From contig JAFGIN010000027.1 in NCBI GenBank assembly GCA_016929595.1, positions 62,001 through 126,000 on the forward strand: 64,000 bases of DNA. Reading direction: 5' to 3'. Every line of letters begins with the position of its first letter. The first letter of the stretch is position 1. The position numbers and the translations under genes were made by a program. This document shows, piece after piece, positions 23,805 through 43,095 of the stretch. The DNA comes from Chitinispirillaceae bacterium (lineage in GTDB: Bacteria; Fibrobacterota; Chitinivibrionia; Chitinivibrionales; Chitinispirillaceae). Below the pieces are notes generated by a model. The model was not told the DNA's origin, ran no database searches, and saw only the letters and a program-made list of their open reading frames with translations.

Positions 23805-23883
23805 ACTACACACACTTTCTTTGATTGGTTGTTTAACATAATGATTTTTACAATGTCCGGATCAAATCCCTGATAGTCTTTTG

Positions 23884-25608
23884 TTATCTTGTGAATACCA
23901 CAGCATTGTCCTCTGATCTCTGATTCATATACATAAGCTTTATGTATTCGTGCGAAAAAATTCTTGATGATATTGTGATTTCATCCATTGAACCATTCCA
24001 TTGGTAATTACCGTTTGCATCAGATCCAATACGTAATGGTAATTCATTCCTGATAGTACTGATATTTTTGATATCGCCGGCAGTCGGATATGTACTTACA
24101 TCTACTCCGTCAATATACAGATGACAATCGTTTCTATCCGAACGGTTAATCACCGCTGCTACATGGTGCCATGCTGTATCGGTAATCCATGCTCTGGAAG
24201 TAAGAACAAAGGTCCCGGGATCAGCCCAGACACCATCACCTGTTGCTATATAAATTGCCAGTGCTCCATCAGCATCTAACTGAAGAAGCCAGCCATATGA
24301 GCTACTGGCCTTTCCACCTGAACTTTTAGAAATAATTGTGCTTATTTTCTTTTCATCCGATTTCTTTATCCAGCCACTGACCGAAAAGTTGGACATATCA
24401 GGATTACATACATTTCCCATATCAGCATAATCCCCGGAACCATCAAAAAATTCTGAAAAGCCTATGCATCCTTTAACGGATCTGAGATTATCCATTTTTG
24501 TTCCATTGTAATTGTTTGCAGTTACATCAAGAATAGTCCTGGTGTCATTTCCGAAATGCCATGCAGACTTAAATCCATCAGTTGTATCGAAAACAGTCCG
24601 GCTGTTTGAATTACCAGAAGCATCTTCATTGCCCCAATACATCTTTAAACATTGAGTTGAATCATTACCATAAACCGTATCAACTTTAACCCATACCTCA
24701 GCTTCATGTTTCTCTGCATCCCATCGTTCGATTTCAAATGGAACAGGTACGCCATCATATTTAGTAAATCTGATATCACTTCCATCACTGTTAGCTTCAT
24801 TGAAATTGAAATTTTCATCACCTAAACGCACAAGAAGTGGGATATCCGTCACCGTTTCGGTAATATCTGCTCCTGAACTTGTCGTATTCAAGTATATATC
24901 TTTTGACATACGCCATTTGCTTAAAAGATCAAGATCGTAATTTCCCAGATCTTCAGTTTCGTTCGGATCAATAGTGATATGAGGTATTTGAACCGGAGAA
25001 TATTCCGTAGATGTTGATATTATACGGATTGTATAGTTACCTGCCGGAATATCTCCGATTACAAATTCTCCTGTTTCCTTATCACGAACACCTGACCGCT
25101 CAAGTCCATATACCTGAATGAAAAGCTCTGATGAGTCCCCTGGAGCTGTAGTACAGGAACCTTTTATCGTTCCGGTTGGAAGGAGTCTTGCATTTGGTAA
25201 CTGCACCACAGTATCCATCCGGGAGATTTCACACATCAGCAGAATTGCATTGGCTTTACCATCATTGATCTCAATACAGTACTGTCCACGATCAACTGAA
25301 TTTATACGGAATTCACCTTTTGAATTGGTAAAAGTATCCCGAAATGAAGCTAAATTTTTTTCCGGTTGTTCCCCCAGGATATAATCATGCGATCGTAAAC
25401 GCACTCTTGCCCCAGATGCAAAACTACCGTTATCATTATATATTACACATGAAATACGACCATTACCGGATTGTGAACCGGTACCTGTTATACCTTCATT
25501 ATTAGAGCACCTTAAAATAACCACCACTAAAGCAATAACACTTATAGCCACAAAAAACGTATTATTTTTAATGGTATGATTTTTCAATTGTATATGAATC
25601 TGTCTCAT
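23884..25608 (-). CDS. DUF2341/LamG surface lipoprotein paired with TIGR02147 regulator
   Basis: A 574-residue predicted lipoprotein. A long N-terminal anchor ends in ILRC, a poor lipobox (Arg at -1), then a short polar linker with the motif GSQSGNGRIS. Carboxypeptidase-regulatory-like repeats follow (about 50-130 and 140-215), a DUF2341 domain (about 230-330, SGSDIRFTKYDG-type core) and a LamG/concanavalin-like domain (about 340-570, with FSVSGWIKK, WHHVAAVINRS, DEITISSRIFSHEYIKLMY). The start codon overlaps the stop of the TIGR02147 gene by ATGA, so the two are translationally coupled. A paralogue with the same order lies at 41384-43057. The LamG part suggests glycan binding at the cell surface; this is inference. 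Confidence 0.85.
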   Translation of the reverse strand: MRQIHIQLKNHTIKNNTFFVAISVIALVVVILRCSNNEGITGTGSQSGNGRISCVIYNDNGSFASGARVRLRSHDYILGEQPEKNLASFRDTFTNSKGEFRINSVDRGQYCIEINDGKANAILLMCEISRMDTVVQLPNARLLPTGTIKGSCTTAPGDSSELFIQVYGLERSGVRDKETGEFVIGDIPAGNYTIRIISTSTEYSPVQIPHITIDPNETEDLGNYDLDLLSKWRMSKDIYLNTTSSGADITETVTDIPLLVRLGDENFNFNEANSDGSDIRFTKYDGVPVPFEIERWDAEKHEAEVWVKVDTVYGNDSTQCLKMYWGNEDASGNSNSRTVFDTTDGFKSAWHFGNDTRTILDVTANNYNGTKMDNLRSVKGCIGFSEFFDGSGDYADMGNVCNPDMSNFSVSGWIKKSDEKKISTIISKSSGGKASSSYGWLLQLDADGALAIYIATGDGVWADPGTFVLTSRAWITDTAWHHVAAVINRSDRNDCHLYIDGVDVSTYPTAGDIKNISTIRNELPLRIGSDANGNYQWNGSMDEITISSRIFSHEYIKLMYMNQRSEDNAVVFTR

Positions 25609-26471
25609 TGTGTATCACCTGTTATAGTAGAGTCTGCTTCCACCAGAGGAAACAGCTGGAAATTACATTGACATACCATTTCTGATCTTGTTGTATCTTC
25701 TAGTACCATTTTCAATAAGTCCTCTTTAAAGCTGCGTATACGCTCTTTAATTCTTATATAACAGTGCCGTGAAACTCCAAGAGTCAGTGAGCTGATTTCA
25801 CGCTCTGCTGGTTCAAAACGCTCGAGTGCATTCCTGGCAAGTTCAATGACTTCCGACTGAAAATTTCTTAAAATGAGCGATTTCATCTCATATTCAGATG
25901 ATATAACAGCATCGCTAAGTTCAAGTATCCCATTTTTATTGCGACGTAAAATCCCAAGCTGCAACATTATCTCAAATGATTTCTTTGCCTGCGATACCGT
26001 GATTCGCGGGATACACTTACAGGCAATCCATTCATAATCCTCTTTAAAATCCGGAAGAGTAACCATTTCCCTCAATGCACTATGGTACCAGGTACGAAAA
26101 AATTCATACTGACTTTTATCAATAAATTTTATAGAAGAATTTCCACGCAAACGGAGCAATTCTGTTAAATGCACATTTTTTTCATCAGTCGTTTTACTGT
26201 TATTAAACTTAACAACAGCACCAAAATAATCTGTTTCCTTTTGTGATATATTCATTGCAGCTGCATACTTCTTCATTACAGGAATACTAAGCCTCCGCCT
26301 GCCTTCAACGATATCGCTGAACAGGCTTGCCGATACACCGGATTTAACTGCAAAGTATCTGTATGAAAACGATCGGATCCGCTTCTTCTGAAATTCGTAA
26401 TATTCTTTTAAGAGAATTCTGTAATCAGAATAATCATAAACATTAAAACACTGTAAAGATTTTGAATTCAT
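25605..26471 (-). CDS. TIGR02147 family (DUF4423) regulator, copy 1
   Basis: A 288-residue cytoplasmic protein. It opens with the family signature 'FNVYDYSDYRILLKEYYE', then a helix-turn-helix of XRE type (about 38-75, YFAVKSGVSASLFSDIVEGRRRLS). A long helical DUF4423 region carries 'FFRTWYHSALREMV', 'RITVSQAKKSFEIMLQLGILRRNKNG' (a winged-helix-like segment) and the end 'SSLTLGVSRHCYIRIKERIRSFKEDLL...VCQCNFQLFPL'. TIGR02147 was defined on a Fibrobacter succinogenes paralogous family; the ligand and targets are unknown. The stop overlaps the lipoprotein start. With the second pair at 40525-43057, this makes a repeated regulator/lipoprotein module. Confidence 0.92.
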   Translation of the reverse strand: MNSKSLQCFNVYDYSDYRILLKEYYEFQKKRIRSFSYRYFAVKSGVSASLFSDIVEGRRRLSIPVMKKYAAAMNISQKETDYFGAVVKFNNSKTTDEKNVHLTELLRLRGNSSIKFIDKSQYEFFRTWYHSALREMVTLPDFKEDYEWIACKCIPRITVSQAKKSFEIMLQLGILRRNKNGILELSDAVISSEYEMKSLILRNFQSEVIELARNALERFEPAEREISSLTLGVSRHCYIRIKERIRSFKEDLLKMVLEDTTRSEMVCQCNFQLFPLVEADSTITGDTQ

Positions 26472-26972
26472 GATATATCAATATAAGTAATGATTCTTAA
26501 TGTGTAAGGATAATAAATGTTACTCACCCATATGATCTGCGTACATATTAACTACTAAAGCATTGATATAAAAGATATTATGAATGACAAAAAGCGCGTA
26601 CGTTTTTTTCTGCGAACATAAATTATATGTCATTTCCGTATGTACCTTTTTTCATAACAACATGCTTCAAATCAAGTCAGTTAATCAGTATCTGTTCAAA
26701 ATGATTTTTAATAATACATTTCGACAAGTTCAGAATGAGTGTTCTATGCGTATTCCGCATAAAAAGAACGTTCATCTGATCCCGAACCCGGGATGAAGTA
26801 TGGGCAGTTTTTTCAGAGTATTTTGAAAAGATTTTGAAAAGATACTGATTACTATACTCTTTGATTCAGTCGTAAAGATGTATATGTAGTTCTGATACAT
26901 TTTTCATGTATGGAAGATCGATTACTATCCCGAAAATGAAGAAACACTCACAATCAAAAAACAACCTTCTAA
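26472..26972. other. Intergenic region upstream of TIGR02147 copy 1
   Basis: No gene recognised; AT-rich. A short inverted repeat (ATCCCG / CGGGAT) lies near 26780. The promoter of the minus-strand module should lie in the left part; no CATGGAC-N6-GTCCAC element is present. Confidence 0.35.
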
Positions 26973-28448
26973 TCAGTAAAATGCCACCATTTTCTTTTCA
27001 GCTACTCCATTTTCATATAAAATACTTACAAGATAGACGCTTCTTGTTTCCACTTTCACTTGTAAATTTCCAGCAACTTTGTTTTTACAGTAAATCAAGC
27101 GTCCATCTGGTGTGAAGAGTGCAATTCTGTAAGATGAACCTATTCCTGAAGGAACTATTTCAATAGAATTCGCATCCATTTTTGTTCTGCACAAAAAACC
27201 GGTAATCGTTTTCAAAGGTTTAGCTATAGATCCGGTAACAGGTTGAGAAGAGATCATCAGCATGTTTGTACCGTGAGATGAGACTTGCATTGTGTATGAA
27301 CCGGTAAAGACTCCCAATTCTTTTTTCTCCCATAAATCTCTTATGGTAACTGTACCTGAGAGACCGATATCTGAAAAATTGACGGTGATATTCGCTGTAT
27401 TACTATTTCGGTTAAACAATCCAACAGCTTTTGTAGTGCCATCTTTTGAACCTAATGGTTTACACCATATATCGAGCCCATTGGACGATTTGATCCTGGT
27501 TCCCTGTATTCCCGCAGAATCCTGGTTGATAGCGATGACTTCTTTATTAAGAAGAATTTCTCTGGTAATCTGTTTCATATTCCGGATATCATTTCCAAGT
27601 ATAAGAGGTGCTGCCATGATACACCATAGACTCATATGTGAACGGTATTCATTATCGTTTGGACCACCATTTCTGTAATTGCCAATTTGAAGCATATCAG
27701 GATCATTCCAGGCTCCAGGTTTTGCATACGGTGCTCTTGGTTCATTTAAATCGATGATATCAAGTATGCCCCATGACCACTCATTTGTTTTTTTCCATAT
27801 ATTGAGTATATCAGTTGTGGTACGCCACAGATTTCCCGTTTTTGGCATCCATGGTTGAAATTCCCATGCGCAAATGCTATATACAATATCCCTGCCGCAA
27901 TTAGCAAGTGCATCCCGCATTTTTTCATAATCTTTCTGCATTGTCGCACCATTTGCTAAACAATTATCATATTTGAGATAGTCAACACCCCAAGAAGCAA
28001 ACGTTTTAGCATCCTTTATCTCTCTTCCGACACTGCCACTTTTGGTATCCAGTTCTTTGAAATTATCACGAAAATAACAGGTCTCTGTACCACGATCACC
28101 ATAGATACCAAATTTAAGTCCTTTGGAATGGATGTAATCACCAAGCGCTTTCATACCGCCAGGAAAGCGATCAGGATCTGCCCGTAAGTTATCGTTTGCA
28201 TCCCTTGATTTTGCCATCCAGTTATCGTCAAGATTGAGGTAAACATACCCTGCATCCTTCAAACCAGAACTCACCATTGCGTCGGCGACCTCTTTAATCT
28301 GTTTCTCATTAATGTTTGCACCGAAACAGTTCCAGCTGTTCCATCCCATCGGAGGGGTTTTAACTAATCCGTTATCTAATGCGACGGCATTGATTATTAC
28401 ACCTGCGATTGCGATGCCTGCTGTTAAGCGTATAATTTTATTTAACAT
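26973..28448 (-). CDS. GH27 alpha-galactosidase, secreted, with sorting tail
   Basis: A 491-residue enzyme releasing terminal alpha-galactose (or arabinopyranose) from side chains such as those of galactoglucomannan. Signal peptide (cleaved near residue 24); GH27 barrel (about 28-300) with TPPMGWNSWN (31-40), LNLDDNW, the nucleophile Asp161 in YLKYDNC and the acid/base-region motif WNDPDM (247-252). A C-terminal beta-sandwich (about 300-395) is typical of the family, then a sorting tail (about 415-491, IALFTPDGRLIYCKN...VYLVSILYENG). It lies 101 bases downstream of the GH10 gene on the same strand, so possibly co-transcribed with it. Confidence 0.94.
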   Translation of the reverse strand: MLNKIIRLTAGIAIAGVIINAVALDNGLVKTPPMGWNSWNCFGANINEKQIKEVADAMVSSGLKDAGYVYLNLDDNWMAKSRDANDNLRADPDRFPGGMKALGDYIHSKGLKFGIYGDRGTETCYFRDNFKELDTKSGSVGREIKDAKTFASWGVDYLKYDNCLANGATMQKDYEKMRDALANCGRDIVYSICAWEFQPWMPKTGNLWRTTTDILNIWKKTNEWSWGILDIIDLNEPRAPYAKPGAWNDPDMLQIGNYRNGGPNDNEYRSHMSLWCIMAAPLILGNDIRNMKQITREILLNKEVIAINQDSAGIQGTRIKSSNGLDIWCKPLGSKDGTTKAVGLFNRNSNTANITVNFSDIGLSGTVTIRDLWEKKELGVFTGSYTMQVSSHGTNMLMISSQPVTGSIAKPLKTITGFLCRTKMDANSIEIVPSGIGSSYRIALFTPDGRLIYCKNKVAGNLQVKVETRSVYLVSILYENGVAEKKMVAFY

Positions 28449-28549
28449 TGAAAACTCTCATTGACAAAGACATTTACCAATGCACATCCCGGATCTATTG
28501 ACACCAATAATCAGTGGTCTGTTTTACCAATTCGACAAGAATGATTCAA

Positions 28550-29809
28550 TCAGTGCATTTCATTGACTGTTTTACTGTAATGGTTACCGGTTTTTAAAAT
28601 AAAACAACCGTTTGCGCTGACTATCCCTGGTTTTTTATTGATTAGCATAGTACCATTAGAAGCTCTTCCCGCTCTTCCCTGAAGATCAAAAATTTGCCAG
28701 TTGATTGTGTTATCAGACATGCCTGTTGGCAATGGTGAAAATGAAATATTCCGTGAAGGGACATCAACGGTGACTTCCTTTACCAAATCAGGATAGTCAT
28801 TGGGTGGCTCAGGATGACTCTTCACAAAATCAACTAACCAGGTAAGTGCCGGACGTTCTGCTCCACCATCATTGAGCAGGCCAGTACCGCTTCTCCATGT
28901 CCGCCCTACAATGTAACCCCAATAAGTAATTCCTGGAATTTTGGGATGATTCCAGAACATGGTGAACTGTTCCTGCATAATCTGCTTCTGACGTGCATCA
29001 TTGCTTTCACCAATATCATATTCAGTAACAAATATCGGATATCCAGTGGCAGCCAGTTTGTCAATATTACTTTTTACAGTTGATGTTGCAATTTTCCATG
29101 CATCATGCGCCTGCACTCCGATGGCATCCATTTCAGAATTATTTTTCTTCATCGCATTCGCCATTCTTACCTGCCAATCAACTTCGCTGTTCCATTCGAT
29201 TGTGTTATAATCGTTGTAAATCAAGACAGCATCGGGCCATCGATCCCGGGCCATTTTAAATATTTTGATCATCCAATCATAACCTGTCGCTCCATCGCCA
29301 CCGAGAGCATTCTTGAATGGCGGAGGTTTATGTGAAGGATACGCCTCATTTATAACATCGATCATTTGCACATCGGGATAACGCGCTGCAACAGAATCCA
29401 GCCATTCGGTAATCTCCTCAAGCTGTTCCGATTGGGAAAGATTATCCATCCATCTTGGATACTGACTTCCCCAGATAAGGCAGTGAAACTTCCATGGAAT
29501 CCCGTTTTTTCTAGAAAAATCGGCAATGGCATCAGTACCCTTCCAGTTCATTTTATCGCGGGTACCTTCAATAGTTGCCCATTTTGATTCATTTTCGCCG
29601 GTAAGCTGGTTCCAGTATTTCAGGTAATCAGGACGTACGGCATTCCATGTCGTAATGTTCCCAAGAAATTTGTTTGCACCTTTTGCAGGTTGTGCAAATA
29701 AAGGTACGGGAGCCAGTATCAGCAACGTCAGAATGAGTACCAAAACCGTACTGACCAATTCTATTTTTTGTTTTGAGCTCACCTTTAAACTACGTGTGTT
29801 GACTGCCAT
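28550..29809 (-). CDS. GH10 endo-1,4-beta-xylanase, secreted, with sorting tail
   Basis: A 419-residue xylanase. The signal peptide ends near AQ (39-40). The GH10 barrel (about 44-345) shows the acid/base Glu155 (DVINEAYP) and the nucleophile Glu263 (FVTEYDIG). A short linker and a compact tail (about 365-419, INWQIFDLQGRAGRASNG...GCFILKTGN) complete it. I place the start at the ATG at 29809 because AAAGGAGG lies nine to ten bases upstream; the longer in-frame reading to 29890 lacks a site. The upstream region to the divergent CE1 esterase contains two CATGGAC-N6-GTCCAC elements. Confidence 0.95.
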   Translation of the reverse strand: MAVNTRSLKVSSKQKIELVSTVLVLILTLLILAPVPLFAQPAKGANKFLGNITTWNAVRPDYLKYWNQLTGENESKWATIEGTRDKMNWKGTDAIADFSRKNGIPWKFHCLIWGSQYPRWMDNLSQSEQLEEITEWLDSVAARYPDVQMIDVINEAYPSHKPPPFKNALGGDGATGYDWMIKIFKMARDRWPDAVLIYNDYNTIEWNSEVDWQVRMANAMKKNNSEMDAIGVQAHDAWKIATSTVKSNIDKLAATGYPIFVTEYDIGESNDARQKQIMQEQFTMFWNHPKIPGITYWGYIVGRTWRSGTGLLNDGGAERPALTWLVDFVKSHPEPPNDYPDLVKEVTVDVPSRNISFSPLPTGMSDNTINWQIFDLQGRAGRASNGTMLINKKPGIVSANGCFILKTGNHYSKTVNEMH

Positions 29810-30121
29810 AAAATGTGCCTCCTTTGAAAATAATACTCGATAGGAGTCTTTCTGATTAACTTTTATAGTCATACCTCTTATCAAGATCACCTGTTATGAA
29901 TATCTTTTGTAAAATAGTATACCTACATAAATTATCTGACTTGTGCACCAGGCTCATGTCCATCGGACATTTCAATTCTTCGGTATTTAATCTGATAACG
30001 TTCAGATAATCATTTATTTGTAAATTTTAAAAAAAACTGACTGAACTATTTCATGTAGTTTACTACAATTTAATCGAAAAAATATTAATCGTGATATTTT
30101 CTTACGATATTTTCAAAAAAG

Positions 30122-30140
30122 CATGGACTGTGATGTCCAC
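30122..30140 (+). promoter_or_regulatory. CATGGAC-N6-GTCCAC element, copy 2
   Basis: Spacer TGTGAT. It lies between the divergent GH10 xylanase (start 29809) and CE1 esterase (start 30336) genes, about 195 bases from the esterase ATG and 313 from the GH10 ATG. Confidence 0.7.
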
Positions 30141-30211
30141 ATGTTGTATCCATTTAATTCAGTTCACCCGATTTAACATTATATAATAAGCTACTTTGTA
30201 CCCGGTTGTCT

Positions 30212-30230
30212 CATGGACATTCCTGTCCAC
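30212..30230 (+). promoter_or_regulatory. CATGGAC-N6-GTCCAC element, copy 3
   Basis: Spacer ATTCCT. It is placed 105 bases before the CE1 esterase ATG and exactly 90 bp after copy 2, that is between eight and nine helical turns. Confidence 0.7.
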
Positions 30231-30299
30231 AGAATTTCCTGTATATCTACACTTTTTGTCCCTCATAAAAATTGTGGTGGTTATATTATCATAAAATAA

Positions 30300-31376
<1,077 letters not shown>

Positions 31377-31733
31377 CTTTAAAATAAACCCGGTTTTCAT
31401 GTCGGTGCAGGCGCATTGTGTTGAATCGTAAAGGCCTATTTGAGATGTTGAAGGTAATGCGCACTGTATCCGACCTGAAATTTCGGTTAAGTATTAGTCA
31501 ATCCAATATTGTTCTGTAACGTAAATTTTTTTTCAATCAATGCTACCCCATTTTACTGGATCGTAATCCGGCATCATCTTGTAAAACAGCTTTATTCAAG
31601 AGGTGCAGCTAAGACCTGAATATAAGATTTAAGTTTTTTTTAAAATTAAATAGAATTTCATGAAGAGCAAGCTATAGTTTATTAGTATACATTAGCAAAT
31701 AAATTACATTTATATAAGAAAGGAAATTCAAAA
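31377..31733. other. Intergenic region before CotH gene
   Basis: No gene recognised and no shared palindrome. The last 100 bases are very AT-rich and hold the AAAGGAAA site of the next gene. Confidence 0.35.
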
Positions 31734-34655: not shown

Positions 34656-35063
34656 GCATGACATGTGCATTGGATTTATATATTGTGTGTCCCCGCACTT
34701 TGATGCCAAAGATGTCGTCGGATGGAGTTGATTGACTATTAGTTATTGGTTCAGGAGAACCCACGAAAAAAAATGAGGATGGTTTGTTTTTGTCATATTC
34801 TGTCCTTTTAGTGCCTTTCGTGTATTTCGTGGTTAAAATCTTCAAGGGGATTGGTTATTTGCTTTCCCTCCGTCCCCTCCGTCCCCTCAGTCCCCTCAGT
34901 CACTCAGTCACTCAGTCACTCAGTCACTCAGTCACTCAGTCACCTTTTCTGCAGTTTTCGCCGGTGTTGCTTTTGTCAACAATATCAAGGAGGAATCTTT
35001 TCCGTGGAAAACCCGCACCATGATCAGGTTGATAAGGGGAAGCTTCCTTGTTTTTTTATTTTT
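34656..35063. other. Repeat-bearing spacer between convergent genes
   Basis: Contains the stretch near 34801-34842 whose reverse translation reads KYTKGTKRTE, a simple-sequence motif widely scattered in environmental bacterial genomes (TTTCGTG-type repeats), followed by the tandem repeat listed separately. No gene is present. Confidence 0.5.
34866..34941. repeat. Compound tandem repeat (9-mers then 8-mers)
   Basis: Four 9-base units (CCCTCCGTC twice, then CCCTCAGTC twice) pass directly into five 8-base units (ACTCAGTC). The switch from 9 to 8 bases by single changes shows stepwise growth by slippage. It lies outside genes, between the CotH and GH8 stops, and should vary in length between strains. 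Confidence 0.9.
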
Positions 35064-36461
35064 TTAATATATTGAAACGATCTGTCGAAAACTGTTATTA
35101 TCATTTTTATTTTTGACAGTCAATATATAGCATCCACTTTGTAATGATGATACATCAAGCGAAATCTGCTGTTTACCTGCAACTGGTGTGCTTTTTGCCA
35201 CATTTCCATTGAGAGCGATAAGCGTCACACGATTACACTCTGAAATACCAGATAGTTCGATTGTATTATTTTTTAAAGTTTTTACTATAATGGAATTAGT
35301 ACTATTTAAGATTCTATTCCTTTGCAGATCAGTTTTAGAAGAGATTCCAGTATCTTTTATTTGCCACATATTACCAGTCATAGTTAACATATAACAGTTA
35401 CCCAGAAATGCATGATACCAGTACCTGTCAAACGACATACGGGCAACTTCTGTACCGAATGCATCTGCAATTTCCTGACTATTACACATTGCAGCCACAG
35501 CAAAACTACCCACGTAAGCCATATTATGGTTTCTACCGGTTGGTGTACCGTCGAGTCTGTATCCATCTTTAATATTTTGTGGACCTATTTTATAAGCCCA
35601 GTCGGATATTTTTGTACACCATTCTTTCGCCTTTTCATTACCATTCCAGAGATAGTCAAGTGCAATTCGCCATGGAGCCCTGCAGGCATCAAATCCATAG
35701 GAATGAATTCTTCCACCTGCTGCCCCTCCTGAGAGTGTTTGCCAGTCTGGAATAAGACCAGTTGTTTTATCTGCACCATTATTGAGAAGCGTATATGTGT
35801 CATCCGCAAGCTTACTCCATGCCTTTTCACCAGTTAAATCAGCGAAACATCTGAAAAATGCTGGTGTATGGTAAGAAATATCTGTTTCCTGACATCCACC
35901 ATATGTGCTGTTTCCACCCATACCTCCTGCAATCACAGAAGTACCACCGGAACAATTGACTATCAATTTTTTTACGGTATTTATAATTTTTATAGCTTCT
36001 GTTTTATAACTCTCTCCCCACTGCCATGAAGCCACTACCATCGAAAAAGCTACATCAAGATCTCCATCACTGGCACTGCCTCCATCAGAAACCCCCCCAC
36101 AGGTTGTTCTCCAGGCCATCATTCCATGACCTTGTACTTTACTTTTATAAAACTTGTATAATCCATCAAAGGTTGTTTTGTCACCCATATATGCAGCGAT
36201 AATCATTGCCCATCCCATGGATTCAACCTTTGTTTCAGACGCATTATCAGCAGCCGTTCTGATCCCCCCATTACACTCCGGAAGAAGATTACTTGACTTA
36301 TAACTTTTATACCACTTATCGAGCGTAGCATTAGTTATGGTTTTTGGTAAAAAACCATGACGGTATTTAATATTCAATGGATATTTAAAATTCTGGCTGT
36401 AAGCTGTTCCGGTTATTAGTACCGCCACTAAAAATACCAACATTATCTGTTGTCTTTTCAT
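35064..36461 (-). CDS. GH8 endoglucanase/xylanase, secreted, with sorting tail
   Basis: A 465-residue enzyme. Signal peptide (cleaved near YSQ, 21-23); GH8 (alpha/alpha)6 barrel (about 30-375) with the proton donor Glu80 (VESMGWAM) and the family signature ASDGDLDVAFSMVVASWQW (about 130-148, with Asp132 and Asp134). The tail (about 395-465, IELSGISECNRVTLIALNGN...SGCYILTVKN) is of the sorting type. The ATG at 36461 has AGGGAG eight bases upstream; the reading extended to 36518 has none. GH8 enzymes act on cellulose, lichenan, xylan or chitosan; the sequence alone does not tell which. Confidence 0.94.
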   Translation of the reverse strand: MKRQQIMLVFLVAVLITGTAYSQNFKYPLNIKYRHGFLPKTITNATLDKWYKSYKSSNLLPECNGGIRTAADNASETKVESMGWAMIIAAYMGDKTTFDGLYKFYKSKVQGHGMMAWRTTCGGVSDGGSASDGDLDVAFSMVVASWQWGESYKTEAIKIINTVKKLIVNCSGGTSVIAGGMGGNSTYGGCQETDISYHTPAFFRCFADLTGEKAWSKLADDTYTLLNNGADKTTGLIPDWQTLSGGAAGGRIHSYGFDACRAPWRIALDYLWNGNEKAKEWCTKISDWAYKIGPQNIKDGYRLDGTPTGRNHNMAYVGSFAVAAMCNSQEIADAFGTEVARMSFDRYWYHAFLGNCYMLTMTGNMWQIKDTGISSKTDLQRNRILNSTNSIIVKTLKNNTIELSGISECNRVTLIALNGNVAKSTPVAGKQQISLDVSSLQSGCYILTVKNKNDNNSFRQIVSIY

Positions 36462-37042
36462 AGTATGTTCTCCCTGAATCTGAAAAAAGTTCCTGTAAAA
36501 AAATCTTTTAAAAATCAAATAAAAAAGGTTATACCTGAGTCCGTCGATTTTTTAGTTATGAACCGCTGATACAATAGTTTAGGGTTGCTACATCCTTCTG
36601 GTCATGATACTAATTTACTTTTAATGGAAAGATGCCTAACCGATAAATTATAGATCGAAGCTAATTGCGCTATAAAAATCATCCGATTCAGGTTATTGTT
36701 TTTTCATTTAACTCCACATTGTCAATAATAATTGAATGATAATGACAGGTAATTTTTTAAGATCCGGTACACCATTACCAGAATTTTTTCATTCATCTGT
36801 ACGATGCAGGTAACGAAAACATTCCTGATGGTTCACCATACTATATAATATACTTTGAATTAACAGATGATGACGGGTTTTGTTAGAGGCGGATTAAAAA
36901 ATGGTGAATAACTTTTCATCGATTTACTGTCAGAAACGACAAAAAACAAAATAACTATAATTGTTACCACTTAACATTTTACATCCTGATTCACACCATG
37001 AAATCGATGTGGTTTTTTAATTATTAATCGTTAAAACATTTA
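36462..37042. other. Gene-free region upstream of GH8
   Basis: Contains the GH8 promoter. A short open stretch near 36800-36885 (reading YDAGNENIPDGSPYY) has coding-like character but no start, extent or family I can recognise; it may be another gene remnant. Confidence 0.3.
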
Positions 37043-37071
37043 AAAAAACGCCCCGGTTGCATACCGAGGCT
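37043..37071 (-). terminator. Intrinsic terminator for the minus-strand esterase unit
   Basis: On the minus strand a GCCTCGGT / ACCGGGGC stem (one mismatch) with a 5-base loop is followed by G and seven T. It ends the CE6 / modular esterase transcript about 180 bases after the last coding remnant. Confidence 0.7.
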
Positions 37072-37194
37072 ATAAAAATTACACATTTTTTAAACGATCA
37101 ATTTAACGATGGTTATCGATCTCGCAAACGAGACGAAATGAACCGGAAAGATCAAGTGAAATCTCGCATAATGCGATCGTTATTACATTTTTAG

Positions 37195-37230
37195 CACCGA
37201 TCAATGCAGAGCTCAGCTCAATGATCGGTG
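37195..37230. repeat. Inverted repeat CACCGATCA / TGATCGGTG
   Basis: Perfect 9-bp arms around an 18-base centre that itself contains GAGCTCAGCTC. No T-run follows on either strand. It lies just past the decayed esterase end and may be an RNA-stabilising structure or a mobile-element scar. Confidence 0.5.
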
Positions 37231-37251
37231 TGTTATTTTAACGTTGTATAA

Positions 37252-37562
37252 TCAGAATCTCGTGAAGAATTCCCATGTCTCAGTGGGAATCCAGTTCTTG
37301 CCGTTCTCCGTACTATTAGCTGTATGCCCTCCATTGAAGGAACTGAATTTCACGGGATATCCTTCATCGCACTCAAATTCAGTGGAGACATGAGTATTGC
37401 CGTTTGCAAGGGGAATTGATGACGGTACGATTCCCCCGTTGTCCTGAATGCGGCCCTGGAGACAATATCTTCCCGCCACGATTTCCACCATTGTCCCATG
37501 GACAGGTTTGGTCACCTGTGACGGGCAGGCAGACGCTTTACCGGTCGCGCCCGCCATCTTAA
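37252..37562 (-). pseudogene. Decayed second copy of an esterase C-terminal end
   Basis: Immediately after the stop of the modular esterase, an open minus-strand frame without its own start encodes about 100 residues ending EGYPVKFSSFNGGHTANSTE...WIPTETWEFFTRF. This parallels the real enzyme's own end (EGYPVKVVTWGGGHTAGESWMPQMAWDFLKQF) and includes the His-containing GGHT. The nucleophile region is missing. It is best read as the leftover 3' end of a related esterase gene after recombination that swapped in the present catalytic domain, or of a tandem duplication. Confidence 0.7.
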
Positions 37563-38984
37563 TCAGAACTGTTTTAAAAAGTCCCACGCCATTTGCGGCA
37601 TCCACGACTCCCCGGCGGTATGTCCACCACCCCAGGTGACGACTTTTACCGGATACCCTTCTTTACAGCCTTTAAAATCGTGGACTAAATACTGACCGCT
37701 GGAGGTGGGTATGGTTGTCGGATTATCGCAGCCGTTGTCCTGTGCATGCTTGGTCGCACAACCTTTTGCACCCGACCAGCCACAGGTGCCATCGCTCATA
37801 CCGGTTGTCTGCATAAAGGCAATGGGTTTGTGAGAGTTGGTAGGAAGCCAGATAACACCATCATACGGAGCAAAGCAGACGACAGCGCGTAACTGATCCT
37901 GATGATTCAATGAGAGTGAGTAGGTGAACATTGCGCCGAAACTGAAACCGACGGAGAAAACCCGCGCGGTATCGATGCACAAATTGCCTTTTAAAAGATC
38001 CAGCAGGTCCTCAAAGAATTTATGATCCTCTTTTCCACCCCAGGTACCATTTGAGTTGGGTCCCTGAGGAGCAACAAGAATGGCGTTGGTTGCAAGATTT
38101 CCCAACCTATAGAAATTATAGGCACCGTCTTGGCGTGCATTATTACCATAAATATCCTGAGCGCTGGCGCCCATACAGTGCATGCCGAATATCAGGCGGT
38201 ATGGATTCGACTTGTCGTAATTACTCGGAAATCTTATCATATATGTTCTATTCTTTCCGGAGGTTGTAATAGTATACGTCCCGGATTTATTGATGGACCC
38301 CAACGTCTTGCCGCAACCGATACTTGGCCCCGGATCCTTGCCGTTGCTGGAGTCGAGTGTAATATCCAGCTTCTGTTCATAAGCATTTATTGTAATTGCT
38401 TTGTCTTTGTAACCAGTAGCTGTAATTTTGAGTGTGTCGTTAACGGCATTTATTTTCGCAAGCATTTGATTTGCTATTACATCAGAACTTTTTGTAGCAG
38501 ATTGTAAGGTATATTTACCATTTGCAAGCGGATGGAATCGAAAGGTCATTTCTGTATTATTGATAGAAATTTTGATGATAAAAAGTTTGTTCGAAGGTGT
38601 AATTTCAGATAGTTTATAGCTGTAAAAACCAGTAGTAATGTTTCTTAAAAGTACCTTCTTTATAAGAGTACCACTGATATCGAATGCCTGAATTTTAATA
38701 TCTGATGGTTCAGTAAGACTGAATACCAGGGCATTATTTTGAAGAATCGCACTGGTGTATTGCGGTATCAACAATGGCAATGTCGATGTAACTATTTTTT
38801 TTATCGAATAGGTGCCATCGGTCCCAGTCGTATCTTTCATCTTCTGGGCTGAGAGTGTGAGTATCGCACCATTTATTGGCTTTCCACTTGCGTTAGAAAC
38901 AGTGCCATGCAGATTAATCGTTTGAGCATTGATTCCACAGATCAGACTGAAACAGAATATCAAGATTACTGATTTTTTTTGCAT
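37563..38984 (-). CDS. Modular secreted esterase (feruloyl/PHB-depolymerase-like) with nested N-terminal module
   Basis: A 473-residue enzyme. Signal peptide ending NAQ; carboxypeptidase-regulatory-like strands (about 22-55, INLHGTVSNASGKPINGAILTL) interrupted by a secretion-tail-like beta-sandwich (about 85-155, IKIQAFDISGTLIKKV...), resuming near 170-215. The alpha/beta-hydrolase domain (about 225-473) has GCGK, HCMGASAQD, the nucleophile elbow GFSFGA and the His motif GGGHTAG. The ATG at 38984 follows GGGGGAAGG; a TTG 12 bases upstream is possible. Catalytic-domain DNA is about 50% G+C in samples I counted, against 30-37% in the N-terminal part, indicating a mosaic gene. It follows the CE6 gene by about 48 bases. 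There is no C-terminal tail. Confidence 0.87.
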   Translation of the reverse strand: MQKKSVILIFCFSLICGINAQTINLHGTVSNASGKPINGAILTLSAQKMKDTTGTDGTYSIKKIVTSTLPLLIPQYTSAILQNNALVFSLTEPSDIKIQAFDISGTLIKKVLLRNITTGFYSYKLSEITPSNKLFIIKISINNTEMTFRFHPLANGKYTLQSATKSSDVIANQMLAKINAVNDTLKITATGYKDKAITINAYEQKLDITLDSSNGKDPGPSIGCGKTLGSINKSGTYTITTSGKNRTYMIRFPSNYDKSNPYRLIFGMHCMGASAQDIYGNNARQDGAYNFYRLGNLATNAILVAPQGPNSNGTWGGKEDHKFFEDLLDLLKGNLCIDTARVFSVGFSFGAMFTYSLSLNHQDQLRAVVCFAPYDGVIWLPTNSHKPIAFMQTTGMSDGTCGWSGAKGCATKHAQDNGCDNPTTIPTSSGQYLVHDFKGCKEGYPVKVVTWGGGHTAGESWMPQMAWDFLKQF

Positions 38985-39032
38985 ACCTTCCCCCAAATAA
39001 AATTAAAAAAAACTACTATTTTGATTATTAAT

Positions 39033-40145
39033 TTATTTCTGATTAACGATAACAGTCCGTTGATTCATTTGTGAACCATTGTGACTATCATTAAAACATT
39101 TTCTATGAATTACAATACATTTATTACTACTATTTTTTGTGAGTCTCATTTTGGATAACAATCCTTGATGAGAACTGATCTTCTTTCCAGACAAATCAAA
39201 AAGAGTATTTATTGTATATGATGGTAATTGACTCTTCTGAATAACGTATTTATTGCTGTATGAATTTATTATATGCACCTTCTCTCCATATGTATATCGC
39301 ATTTTCAGCCATCGCTGGGCACAGATCTGCCCAATTTTGATATACCCGGCAGCCTTGTAATGTGTTCCATCAGTCGGAAACCCTTTGGTATCCATTGTAT
39401 CGACATTCTCGATTTTCTGACTTACAGCAATATCTGCAGCTCTGACTATTGCGTTATGGGTCCATTGGTTTTGCACATCGATCATGGGCAGGATTACAGG
39501 AAGGTCTGATACTTTAACTTCAGCCCGAATATCATTAATGAGATTTGTGAGATTTTTTTCATAAGCATTTGCGTAACCCTTGTCATAAGCGTCAAACTCA
39601 CCTTGAAACCATACAAATCCAGCCCATCTTGGCGTATATTTACTTGTATCAAATGCAGATGAAAAAGATTTCATAGCAGCATCAATCGTGCTCATCATTT
39701 GTTTATAGAGGTTTCCCTCTTTACCATTATTTGAGCTCGGAGGTAGCCACTCTTCAGCCTTTGCAAGATATGTCCCGCCGACAGCATGCTTGATAAATGC
39801 AATTCTGATCCCCGGCATCGAATCTGATAATGTCCGCCCGAAAGAAAGCTCTGGTCCCAGAAATGAACTGAAGGCACCAAACCCTGGCCCTAATGTCAGC
39901 CACTTATTCTTTTTTCCATTATCCCCATCTCCATTCATGAATATTTTTACGCTATCGACACTTTTCTTCTGATCAGCATTGAGATCATTAACTGATCCAA
40001 AATAGCCTGACATATTCGATTGACCCGACAGCAGAAAAACCGGTACTTCGGATTTTCCATAAGAAATCATCGTGCAACAGAAAACTATTATAATAACTGC
40101 GTATATAAATTTTAAACACGAGGATAACTTTATATATTCAATCAT
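39033..40145 (-). CDS. CE6-type acetyl (xylan) esterase, SASA domain, secreted
   Basis: A 370-residue SGNH-type esterase. Signal peptide, then the SASA/DUF303 domain (about 33-275) with the nucleophile block LLSGQSNMSGY, the glycine/Asn blocks AVGGTYL and WFQGEFDA, and the catalytic DGTHY. The tail (about 300-370, YTINTLFDLSGKKISSH...) is sorting-tail-like but poorly conserved beyond its first half. The ATG has GGAG five bases upstream. CE6 enzymes remove acetyl groups from xylan. One CATGGAC-N6-GTCCAC element lies 177 bases upstream, between this gene and the divergent TIGR02147 regulator. Confidence 0.9.
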   Translation of the reverse strand: MIEYIKLSSCLKFIYAVIIIVFCCTMISYGKSEVPVFLLSGQSNMSGYFGSVNDLNADQKKSVDSVKIFMNGDGDNGKKNKWLTLGPGFGAFSSFLGPELSFGRTLSDSMPGIRIAFIKHAVGGTYLAKAEEWLPPSSNNGKEGNLYKQMMSTIDAAMKSFSSAFDTSKYTPRWAGFVWFQGEFDAYDKGYANAYEKNLTNLINDIRAEVKVSDLPVILPMIDVQNQWTHNAIVRAADIAVSQKIENVDTMDTKGFPTDGTHYKAAGYIKIGQICAQRWLKMRYTYGEKVHIINSYSNKYVIQKSQLPSYTINTLFDLSGKKISSHQGLLSKMRLTKNSSNKCIVIHRKCFNDSHNGSQMNQRTVIVNQK

Positions 40146-40524
40146 TTTGTCTCCATTAGTATTAAGCTACTCATAATCTATCTCAAGGAACTGCTACTCT
40201 GAGTGTAACAGGTATCAAATAAAAAGAACAATTTAAAAAACTTTCTCCAGATATGTTTTTTTTTAATGTAACACAAAAGGTAAAAAAATGAATGAGTTTT
40301 GTTCTACTGGTTTGAAAGTTCCATGGACCATGATGTCCACAAGGTAGTTTTGTTACCAATTTTACTATTTTTTTTAATCGTGTAAATATTTTTATATTTA
40401 TTGAGGCGTGTTAGGTATCTGTGATTAATTATTTTAATATTAAAGGTTTAAATGACATTATTCATACTAAATACCCCATAAAAAAAGATAAATTTGTTAC
40501 CTGAAATGTTATATATTATTGTAT
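40146..40524. other. Divergent promoter region CE6 / TIGR02147 copy 2
   Basis: AT-rich, no gene; holds one CATGGAC-N6-GTCCAC element almost exactly midway between the two divergent starts. Confidence 0.6.
40322..40340 (+). promoter_or_regulatory. CATGGAC-N6-GTCCAC element, copy 4
   Basis: Spacer CATGAT. Midway between the CE6 esterase (177 bases away) and the TIGR02147 regulator (about 184 bases away), so it could serve either or both. Confidence 0.7.
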
Positions 40525-41394
40525 ATGAATCAGCATACTGAAACTAAAGTGGATATTTATCATTATTTTGACTATCGCGAATATCTTAATGCTGTCTATA
40601 CTGTGAGGAAGCAGAAGAAAAGTGGCTTTTCACATCGTCTTTTTTCCCATGAAGCTGGTATTACAAGCCCGAACTATCTTTTTCGGGTTCTGAAAGGGGA
40701 ACGTACCCTCAATGGCGATTATATAGAGAAATTTTGTCATGCCCTTCATCTGACCGGTAATAAAAAAAAGTATTTCACCACACTGGTTTATTTCAATAAT
40801 GAAACTCAATCCTCGACAAAAGAGAGGTATCTTCAATCACTCCTGTCGATCCGATACCGTAGAGGCATTCATAGAATAGATGATAAAAAGCTCCAATTCT
40901 TCAGCAAATGGTATTACCCTGTCATTCGGGAACTTGCAGTAATAATAGATTTCAGGGGAGATTTTAATCTTCTCGCAAGAAGCTGTCATCCCCGCATTAC
41001 CGCACAGCAATGTGAGAACGCAGTATCGTATCTGTTAAAAAATGGATTCCTCGAAAAAAATAAAAATGGTACATTTAAAAGATCCGATCCGGTAATTTCC
41101 AGCGGTGATGAGGTAAAATCTGTTGTTTTGAGAAACTATCATAAACAGACATTAAACCAAAGTATTGATGCACTGAACACTATAGCTCCGGAAAATCGTG
41201 ATATTTCATCGGTAACTCTCTGTGTTTCAAAAAAGACCTATCTTGCAATGAAAAAAGAGATCCAGGATTTCCGCAAGCGATTGCTGTCAATGGCCAGAGA
41301 GGACAAAAATCCGGAAATGGTATGCCTTGCAGGTTTTCAATTGTTTCCACGTTCCAGGATAGATCTTGATACAGGGAGTACGCATGAAGATTAA
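40525..41394 (+). CDS. TIGR02147 family (DUF4423) regulator, copy 2
   Basis: A 289-residue paralogue of the protein at 25605-26471, with the same blocks in the same order: 'IYHYFDYREYLNAVY', a helix-turn-helix (about 38-72, LFSHEAGITSPNYLFRVLKGERTL), 'FFSKWYYPVIRELAV', 'RITAQQCENAVSYLLKNGFLEKNKNG', and 'SSVTLCVSKKTYLAMKKEIQDFRKRLL...VCLAGFQLFPR'. I use the ATG at 40525; a TTG six bases earlier is possible and neither has a strong ribosome site. The gene overlaps the following lipoprotein gene by 11 bases. A DNA-binding role is likely from the helix-turn-helix. Confidence 0.92.
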   Translation: MNQHTETKVDIYHYFDYREYLNAVYTVRKQKKSGFSHRLFSHEAGITSPNYLFRVLKGERTLNGDYIEKFCHALHLTGNKKKYFTTLVYFNNETQSSTKERYLQSLLSIRYRRGIHRIDDKKLQFFSKWYYPVIRELAVIIDFRGDFNLLARSCHPRITAQQCENAVSYLLKNGFLEKNKNGTFKRSDPVISSGDEVKSVVLRNYHKQTLNQSIDALNTIAPENRDISSVTLCVSKKTYLAMKKEIQDFRKRLLSMAREDKNPEMVCLAGFQLFPRSRIDLDTGSTHED

Positions 41395-43057
41395 ATCGCA
41401 GGGAACGGGATTACATTTGACAGGATGGATTTGCAGCATTGTAACAATTGCTGTGTTCTTATCAGTTATGTATTGTGCACCCGACATATCGGGAGGTGGA
41501 TCTGAGGCCGGGAATGCACGGATTTCCGGGTTGGTAACCGATGAGGAGGGTAAACCAGCCTCAAATGTTAAAGTATCAATTGTTCCAGCAGATTATGATC
41601 CGGTAAAAGATCCCAAACCCGCCGCACCCTTTTATGCTACTACAGGTGCTGATGGCAAATATCACTTCACTATTGCTGACAGTGGAAAGTATTCAATATT
41701 TGCATGTCAGGAGTCTTCACACACATCGACATTACTTTCATATTTTGCGGGTAAAGGTGATGAAACCATTCCCTCATGCAAACTTCATAAACCCGGAGCT
41801 ATCAAAGTTCCATTGCCACCGGGAAGCGATACGGTAAACGGATACCTGTACATACCGGGGACTACGATATATGCACTCCTTCAACATGCAGTAACAAGCG
41901 TAATCATTGACTCTGTGCCATCCGGAATTATACCCGCAATAATGTATGCTGCTATTGGCAATAACAATGCAGTCGAAATAAGGAACAATGTGAATGTCGC
42001 CCCTGGAGATACTATAGCTATTATACTACCGCGATGGAAGTACTCCAGGCAACTGATTCTGAATACCTCTGTAACAGGTGCTGCTATTCAGGAGGATATC
42101 TATAATTTCCCAATACTGATACGACTTTCTTCTTTAAACTTCGATTTTACACAGGCAAAAACTGCCGGAGACGATATCCGTTTTACAAAAGCGGATGGAA
42201 CACCCCTTCCTCATGAAACCGAAGCGTGGGATGGTAACGATTACAGTGCGTCAATATGGGTAAAAATCGATACTGTATTTCAAAATAACGAAATGCAATC
42301 AATTATTATGCACTGGGGAAACCCCGATGCTGAGGACGTTTCAGAAAGTGCTCTGGTATTTGATACCTCCGATGGTTTTCAGGGGGTCTGGCATCTCAAT
42401 GAAAGGTCCGGTGATACAGTTCGTGATGCAACCCGAAACGGATATCATGGTATCACAACTGCCGATAGTACCTTCCCATCAATTACAAGTGGTACAATTG
42501 GAGGATGCTGCGCTTTTGATGGAGTAAACGATTTTATTACCATGCCCAATACAGCTGTGGGGAGATTGAATTTTGCACAGGACGGAAAATTCTCTGTTTC
42601 TGTATGGGTAAAGGCAGACACACTGATTGATTTACAGCAGACCCTTGTTTCAAAAGATAAATATCAATACTTCCTCTGGATCGATTCGACGACCTGGCAG
42701 TTCTGGGAGTTTCAGCATCGTACCGGCTGGATTGCATCAGAGTTCCCTGCACAAAGTAAGCAGTGGATCTTACTGACCGGAGTCTTTGATGGCTCGACAC
42801 AACAACTATATGTCAATGGGGTTCCCGCTTCAACCCAATCACTAAAAGTGGATAATTCTGCCAGGGATACAACAAGTGATCTGATTCTGGGTCGGGCACA
42901 TAAACCAGCTCCATTAATAGTTGAAAATGCAGGTATATGTTCGTTCAAAGGTTCTCTCGATGAAGTTCGTATTACCAGCACGGTGCACAGTGCTGCATGG
43001 GTGCGCTTGTGTTACATGAATCAACGAAGTGATGACCGATTGGTGATTTTTAAATGA
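41384..43057 (+). CDS. DUF2341/LamG surface lipoprotein, copy 2
   Basis: A 557-residue paralogue of the protein at 23884-25608. The anchor ends VMYC, followed by the shared linker motif GSEAGNARIS; then a carboxypeptidase-regulatory-like repeat (about 42-110), a second sandwich (to about 200), DUF2341 (about 215-320, AGDDIRFTKADGTPLPHETEAWDG) and LamG (about 325-555, FSVSVWVKAD, LTGVFDGSTQQLYVNGV, DEVRITSTVHSAAWVRLCYMNQRSDD). The ATG at 41384 follows AGGGAG. The modular esterase at 43096 starts 38 bases downstream on the same strand, so regulator, lipoprotein and enzyme form one unit. Confidence 0.87.
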   Translation: MKIKSQGTGLHLTGWICSIVTIAVFLSVMYCAPDISGGGSEAGNARISGLVTDEEGKPASNVKVSIVPADYDPVKDPKPAAPFYATTGADGKYHFTIADSGKYSIFACQESSHTSTLLSYFAGKGDETIPSCKLHKPGAIKVPLPPGSDTVNGYLYIPGTTIYALLQHAVTSVIIDSVPSGIIPAIMYAAIGNNNAVEIRNNVNVAPGDTIAIILPRWKYSRQLILNTSVTGAAIQEDIYNFPILIRLSSLNFDFTQAKTAGDDIRFTKADGTPLPHETEAWDGNDYSASIWVKIDTVFQNNEMQSIIMHWGNPDAEDVSESALVFDTSDGFQGVWHLNERSGDTVRDATRNGYHGITTADSTFPSITSGTIGGCCAFDGVNDFITMPNTAVGRLNFAQDGKFSVSVWVKADTLIDLQQTLVSKDKYQYFLWIDSTTWQFWEFQHRTGWIASEFPAQSKQWILLTGVFDGSTQQLYVNGVPASTQSLKVDNSARDTTSDLILGRAHKPAPLIVENAGICSFKGSLDEVRITSTVHSAAWVRLCYMNQRSDDRLVIFK

Positions 43058-43095
43058 CGAATGAAAGAATACCACATTTTCAAAAGGAGCTAGGT

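Follow-up and report, generated by a model that had tools for sequence, protein, structure and literature searches.

A 64,000-nucleotide window of a Chitinispirillaceae bacterium genome (assembly GCA_016929595.1, contig JAFGIN010000027.1, positions 62,001 to 126,000) contains two gene pairs in which a gene for a TIGR02147 regulator is followed directly by a gene for an exported lipoprotein. We found that this pairing recurs throughout the genome and that the partner lipoproteins carry a short glycine-rich tag close to the lipidated cysteine, which covaries with two residues of the regulator. As far as the sequences tell, the link within a pair is this GSxxGN tag and not the LamG domain present in both window lipoproteins.

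As described in an earlier sequence-only reading of this DNA, the two modules lie on opposite strands. The lipoprotein open reading frame (ORF) overlaps the regulator gene by 4 bases in pair 1 and by 11 bases in pair 2, counted there from the first ATG at 41384 (the ORF opens earlier, at TTG 41366). Both regulators score far above the TIGR02147 cut-off of 50 bits (260 and 259 bits, covering model positions 3-271 and 2-271, respectively). The parts of the two pairs are as follows, in window coordinates:

25605-26471, minus strand: regulator 1, TIGR02147, with XRE-type helix-turn-helix (HTH) and predicted DUF4423 winged-helix domain (profile scores, AlphaFold2 model, fold matches)
23884-25608, minus strand: partner lipoprotein 1, with signal peptide, Cys34, tag, beta-sandwich domains, DUF2341 and LamG (Pfam, AlphaFold2 model)
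25507-25509, minus strand: codon of the putative lipidated Cys34 of partner 1; tag 1 starts eight residues after it
25462-25485, minus strand: codons of tag 1, GTGSQSGN, residues 42-49 of partner 1 (motif search)
40519-41394, plus strand: regulator 2, TIGR02147, with an ATG also at 40525 (profile scores)
41366-43057, plus strand: partner lipoprotein 2, with signal peptide, Cys37, tag, CarboxypepD_reg, DUF2341 and LamG (Pfam)
41474-41476, plus strand: codon of the putative lipidated Cys37 of partner 2; tag 2 starts six residues after it
41492-41515, plus strand: codons of tag 2, GGGSEAGN, residues 43-50 of the partner 2 ORF (motif search)

After the signal peptide and cysteine, the window partners continue with GTGSQSGNGRIS or GGGSEAGNARIS, followed by carboxypeptidase-regulatory-like domains, DUF2341 and a LamG-type domain; DUF2341 and Laminin_G_3 are well above the Pfam cut-off in both. 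The GSxxGNxRIS linker that had been noticed just past the lipid cysteine is indeed common to both proteins (C34...GSQSGNGRIS and C37...GSEAGNARIS).

TIGR02147 regulators are paired with exported lipoproteins

Of the 54 TIGR02147 matches in the genome (6.6 Mb in 224 contigs), 51 are full-length; none of 14 control genomes had any. When neighbourhoods were counted by eye, the next gene encoded a lipoprotein on the same strand for 47 of the 51 full-length genes, mostly overlapping and usually by 4 bases. An automatic lipoprotein rule accepted 38 of the 51 partners versus 20 of 247 background genes, drawn from about 0.6 Mb of this genome (Fisher p 6e-34, comparing the by-eye 47/51 with the automatic-rule 20/247). 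Four genes are exceptions: at C76 and C149 the next gene encodes an exported protein of a different kind, 955 or 965 amino acids long, at C160 no lipoprotein could be recognised, and at C12 the neighbour lies on the opposite strand. A second type of partner is represented by L080:2367-5231(-) and L037:3141-6035(-), where exported proteins of 955 and 965 amino acids with apparently similar N-termini follow the regulators and have neither lipid cysteine nor tag. Truncated TIGR02147 copies (C74:88, C124:5927 and C113:130777), two at contig ends and one an 82-amino-acid remnant inside a contig, may be a sign that pairs arise and decay.

The same arrangement was found across the phylum. Of 168 Fibrobacterota genomes, 157 contain TIGR02147, one of which has 85 matches. 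Two locus sets that draw on about 50 further Fibrobacterota genomes gave 189 regulators with a readable downstream ORF, and 173 of these were followed by a lipoprotein-like gene; among the misses, several reflect wrong frames read in a GC-rich genome. The gene overlapped the regulator in 144 of these 173 cases, by exactly 4 bases in 87. Thus, TIGR02147 genes strongly favour a lipoprotein neighbour both genome-wide and phylum-wide, as expected of the dedicated pair proposed in the sequence-only reading. The family was absent from all eight genomes of one genus in the window's own family (G007-G014, genus g5) and from two genomes of another genus (G028-G029); these ten genomes are small, and the absence is probably natural loss.

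In Bdellovibrionota, which have 9-16 TIGR02147 copies per genome, about half of the regulators that were read adjoin a downstream exported protein, often with a 4-base overlap.

The outer domains of the partners vary. Pfam assigned CarboxypepD_reg to 30 of the 47 partners, Laminin_G_3 to 18, DUF2341 to 17, LRR to 4 and Kelch to 2, while others have carboxypeptidase-regulatory-like domains alone, FGE-sulfatase or nothing known. LamG, noted in both window pairs by the sequence-only reading, is not supported as a general rule, since LamG/DUF2341 is confined to 17-18 of 47 partners. The regulator-lipoprotein pairing is general; the LamG domain and the enzyme gene that follows both window pairs are not.

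A short tag beside the lipid cysteine marks the partners

The signal-peptide cysteine is invariant across the 47 aligned partners, and its lipidation is predicted. Position -1 of the lipobox is often Q, R, K, Y, F or N instead of G, A or S, in partners and non-partners alike, and lipoprotein processing may be relaxed in this lineage. The feature that the partners have in common is a short glycine-rich motif near this cysteine, approximately G[GT]x[ST][ED]T[GT]N. A position-specific scoring matrix trained only on other genomes (G-[GT]-[GV]-[ST]-[ED]-T-G-N) scored above the 95th percentile of shuffled tails in 28 of 38 own partners but in none of 20 other lipoprotein-like genes. A regular expression that was drawn up once the partner tags were known matched 160 of 221 partners (38/47 own, 122/174 from other genomes). 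It also matched 2 of 59 own lipoprotein-like non-partners and, in a related genome that lacks TIGR02147, 1 of 38; by eye, these three matches were unconvincing and look spurious. A general surface-export or sorting signal was rejected on the near absence of the tag from other lipoproteins and from the regulator-free genome.

The wobble bases of the tag codons are free: all four codons are used for glycine and for threonine, and serine is drawn from both codon sets. Selection thus acts on the protein and the tag is not a DNA element, and an operator inside the lipoprotein gene was rejected on this ground. In the AlphaFold2 model of window partner 1, residues 33-47, comprising the cysteine and most of the tag, have a predicted local distance difference test score (pLDDT) below 50; the tag thus has the character of a short linear motif within a tether that is predicted to be disordered. 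One Fibrobacterota partner (L257) has no lipid cysteine and places AGGSATGNAL after an N-terminal hydrophobic segment, indicating that the tag does not need lipidation.

About ten of the Bdellovibrionota exported partners also have a G-N tag straight after the signal peptide (TTTGNP, GGSDIGNA, VVGNGGEP, RIGNGGN). Several exported proteins at the Bdellovibrionota loci L181-L193 start with GNGG(D/N)VV-C followed by an LDxYE-like stretch, possibly a family of their own near TIGR02147.

The tag covaries with two regulator residues

The AlphaFold2 model of the regulator has a pLDDT of 87. Its residues 13-97 match XRE-type HTH folds (Z up to about 9), and profile matches of this part to C.BclI and similar proteins were weak (E 0.009). 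For the C-terminal part Pfam gives DUF4423 only; the model has strands there, and residues 113-276 weakly resemble an ArsR-like winged helix with two long helices (Z about 7). Residues 196-253 are located past the wing and within these two helices. The model thus suggests an XRE HTH plus winged-helix protein, which would bind DNA. No membrane segment or signal peptide was seen, and the regulator appears to be cytoplasmic. A HigA-like toxin-antitoxin system was rejected: the HigA matches stem from the HTH, and the partner genes encode exported lipoproteins, not toxins.

Among the 47 own pairs, regulator distance correlated with tag distance (Spearman 0.28, Mantel p 0.002), weakly with distance of the first domain (0.19), and neither with that of the signal peptide (-0.10) nor with that of the rest of the partner (0.04). 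By eye, the tags fall into classes that accompany particular residues at regulator positions 196 and 205: W196 and Q205 with ETTNG, V196 and H205 with xGN[PAG], N205 with xxGNA, S196 and I205 with TEAEST, and A196 and L205 with SEVxG. Column scans were made on three sequence sets, and in every one 205 and 196 were among the three highest-ranking columns. Comparing H/N versus Q at residue 205 against GN versus TN tags gave 53/9 versus 19/43 (p 6e-10), and W versus V at residue 196 gave 30/4 TN versus 8/51 (p 6e-13), in both cases with relatedness still included.

Relatedness was addressed with 194 non-redundant pairs, from which overall regulator identity was regressed out and only pairs less than 38% identical were retained. 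For the tag, columns 196 and 205 were clear outliers, with robust z values of 6.0 and 5.9; next came 253, 225 and 242, likewise in DUF4423. Columns 196 and 205 still stood out among pairs less than 32% identical. The same test applied to the signal peptide and to the segments C+22-60, C+60-120 and C+120-200 showed nothing at 196 or 205. Judged from these alignments, the pattern at the two columns is the one expected of specificity residues.

Upstream DNA of the regulators

Palindromes of the form TGTTG-N6..12-CAACA occur seven times upstream of the TIGR02147 genes (0.26 expected), and these dyads are candidate operators. A -10-like element is found in 31 of 54 upstream regions versus 31 of 120 background regions. 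In the window, both regulators have TATATT[AG] at a distance of about 6-8 bases from their likely start codons, so close that it would give nearly leaderless transcripts:

26479-26485, minus strand: TATATTG, tentative -10-like element just 5' of regulator 1
40512-40518, plus strand: TATATTA, tentative -10-like element just 5' of regulator 2

TATATTA was considered as a family-specific element and rejected; as it is also present in 17 of 120 background upstream regions, it is probably an ordinary -10.

Enzymes downstream of the pairs

Both window pairs are followed by a further gene on the same strand, the second of which overlaps the lipoprotein 2 stop by 4 bases at its start:

22188-23813, minus strand: downstream enzyme 1, GH43 with CBM6 (Pfam)
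43054-44562, plus strand: downstream enzyme 2, a secreted esterase-like protein (profile match below the cut-off)

The sequence-only reading had named both as carbohydrate-active enzymes. This stands for GH43-CBM6, while the modular esterase resembles PHB-depolymerase-type esterases only in a match below the cut-off. Across the genome, glycan-active enzymes (GH43, glucuronyl esterase, pectinesterase, pectate lyase, SASA or GH116) make up about 9-10 of 30 contiguous next genes versus about 1 of 60 background genes. An enrichment is therefore present; a constant third gene is not, and the next gene lies on the opposite strand for 14 of 50 pairs. Foldseek matched the model of lipoprotein 1 to jelly-roll folds, which bind carbohydrate in some other proteins; as these are common domains, the matches say nothing about its function. 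In domain content, the suggested analogy to SusD did not hold, as the Pfam matches of the window partners (DUF2341, Laminin_G_3, CarboxypepD_reg and minor related matches) include no SusD/RagB domain. Glycan sensing through LamG may apply to the subset of pairs with LamG and an adjacent enzyme. In Fibrobacter succinogenes, 40 of 49 lipoproteins were down on cellulose in a proteomics study, including four carboxypeptidase-regulatory-like lipoproteins, which may or may not be TIGR02147 partners (PMC6851124).

Proposed mechanism and alternatives

We propose that each TIGR02147 regulator recognises the N-terminal tag of its own partner lipoprotein through DUF4423 and controls its own operon, a reading to which we give an even chance. 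The overlapping genes would cause the regulator and its lipoprotein to be made side by side, and DUF4423, around residues 196 and 205, would bind the linear tag in the tether past the export signal and cysteine. With neither an export signal nor a membrane segment in the regulator, and with the tag at the very start of the exported partner, contact would most simply be made in the cytoplasm, while the pre-lipoprotein is nascent or accumulating and its export is pending or under way. In this way the regulator would report whether its own surface protein is made and exported, and adjust its operon, including the enzyme gene where present. The analysis shows the pairing, the tag with its restriction to partners and its conservation as protein, and the covariation with residues 196 and 205; we infer direct binding, cytoplasmic contact, DNA binding at the palindromes, autoregulation and its sign, and the stimulus. 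The wider statement, that a cytoplasmic DNA-binding protein reads the tag of its own exported lipoprotein one-to-one, in a system repeated dozens of times within a genome and spread over two phyla or more, seems to us plausible at slightly below even chances.

Several observations weigh against this proposal. In an independent-pairs test on the tree, changes between W196 and TN went 3.7 in the same versus 0.16 in the opposite direction (median p 0.125), and those between H/N/M205 and GN 3.3 versus 0.5; run twice, the test was underpowered and not significant, and its agreement in direction is suggestive only. Part of the tag-regulator association is thus co-inheritance. Individual pairs break the rule, as window regulator 1 combines Q205 with a GN tag, and H205 goes with a TN tag in L122 and L148. 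Because H205 is also frequent among Bdellovibrionota regulators that have no tagged partner, these genomes are consistent with the 205 rule and not an independent test of it. The palindromes are found in only 6 of 54 upstream regions. Moreover, there are only about 6-8 tag classes for about 50 pairs, which rejects the tag as a private key of each pair; the tag alone cannot insulate the pairs, and local co-translational contact or tolerated cross-talk would be needed.

One alternative is co-inheritance only, in which pairs merely duplicate as units and the tag resembles the regulator class by descent, without contact. Tag classes do largely track regulator clades, and the independent-pairs tests agree with such co-inheritance. 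It is nevertheless rather improbable as the whole explanation, because 196 and 205 stand out after removal of identity even among the most divergent pairs, while adjacent partner segments, which are equally inherited, show nothing. We consider it similarly improbable that a third component, for instance one that serves sorting or anchoring at the inner membrane, reads the tag while the regulator merely autoregulates the operon. In favour of such a component, the tag is always just behind the export signal, and G-N tags of a similar kind come after ordinary signal peptides in Bdellovibrionota and after the hydrophobic non-lipoprotein N-terminus of L257; however, tags are confined to TIGR02147 partners, and their type is not uniform and covaries with two regulator residues.

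The main rival to tag recognition before export is surface sensing with peptide feedback, which we regard as unlikely. Here, the ligand-bound lipoprotein would be cut outside the cell, and the tag peptide would re-enter and be read by DUF4423. A comparable case is found in enterococci, where peptides derived from the signal sequences of lipoproteins are read by XRE-type receptors in the cytoplasm. The covariation fits this scheme equally well, the tag is placed in a cleavable disordered tether, the variable outer domains (LamG, LRR, Kelch) suit ligand binding, and carbohydrate-active enzymes are found downstream. However, inspection of the gene calls revealed no dedicated protease or peptide importer within the two-gene unit, and the C-terminal domain of the regulator resembles, on weak fold matches, a winged helix more than a tetratricopeptide repeat (TPR) peptide receptor. 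Less probable still is the model of the sequence-only reading, a glycan-sensing pair whose LamG lipoprotein would sense plant polysaccharide and whose regulator would turn on the enzymes encoded next to it. It agrees with the LamG/DUF2341 domains of the minority noted above, with the jelly-roll matches and with the enzyme enrichment. On the other hand, LamG is missing from most partners and scattered over unrelated regulator and tag classes, the C-terminal parts of the partners do not co-diverge with the regulators (the Mantel value of 0.04), and the model offers no path for a signal across the membrane.

Relation to known systems

By curated score the regulators are members of TIGR02147/Fsuc_second (NCBIfam) with DUF4423 (PF14394), a large paralogous family of Fibrobacterota, present in Bdellovibrionota too, whose model carries no function. 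RRNPP receptors (PrgX, PlcR, ElrR) resemble them in being cytoplasmic proteins with an XRE-type HTH, and in that the peptide belongs to an exported protein. They differ in having C-terminal TPR repeats, where TIGR02147 regulators have a predicted winged helix and long helices, and in taking the peptide from the signal peptide, whereas the tag lies in the mature tether. The SusC/SusD loci of Bacteroidetes likewise combine surface lipoproteins near carbohydrate-active enzymes with a dedicated regulator (hybrid two-component or extracytoplasmic function sigma/anti-sigma); the window pairs have no SusD, hybrid sensor or membrane-spanning sensor, and LamG is not general among partners.

In type III secretion, export-coupled regulators or chaperones that bind substrate adjoin their cognate exported protein, bind its N-terminus and link export to transcription. 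The present pairs differ in using Sec/lipoprotein export and a DNA-binding regulator, and in numbering about 50 paralogous pairs per genome. The lipoprotein export and surface-sorting signals of Bacteroidetes are also short motifs right after the lipidated cysteine, but the tag described here is limited to partners of one regulator family and varies with regulator residues. A literature search, in which most subscription journals were not covered, found no study of the family and no account of the TIGR02147-lipoprotein pairing, the tag or the covariation. In a single paper among those covered, DUF4423 appears in a table of a Bdellovibrio proteome study, among proteins upregulated during growth in prey.

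A unit with about 50 copies suggests an undescribed way to tie gene control to individual surface proteins. TIGR02147/DUF4423, so far a family that bears the name of Fibrobacter but has no function, would gain a concrete role and a recognition rule, in which residues 196 and 205 correspond to the tag. If DUF4423 binds the tag, the pairs would constitute a natural set of parallel regulator-peptide specificities. The proposed mechanism would let bacteria that degrade fibre or prey on others keep dozens of variable surface proteins under control with no need of one transmembrane sensor per protein. If true, it would represent a new signalling class, with transcription coupled to the production or export of each surface protein.

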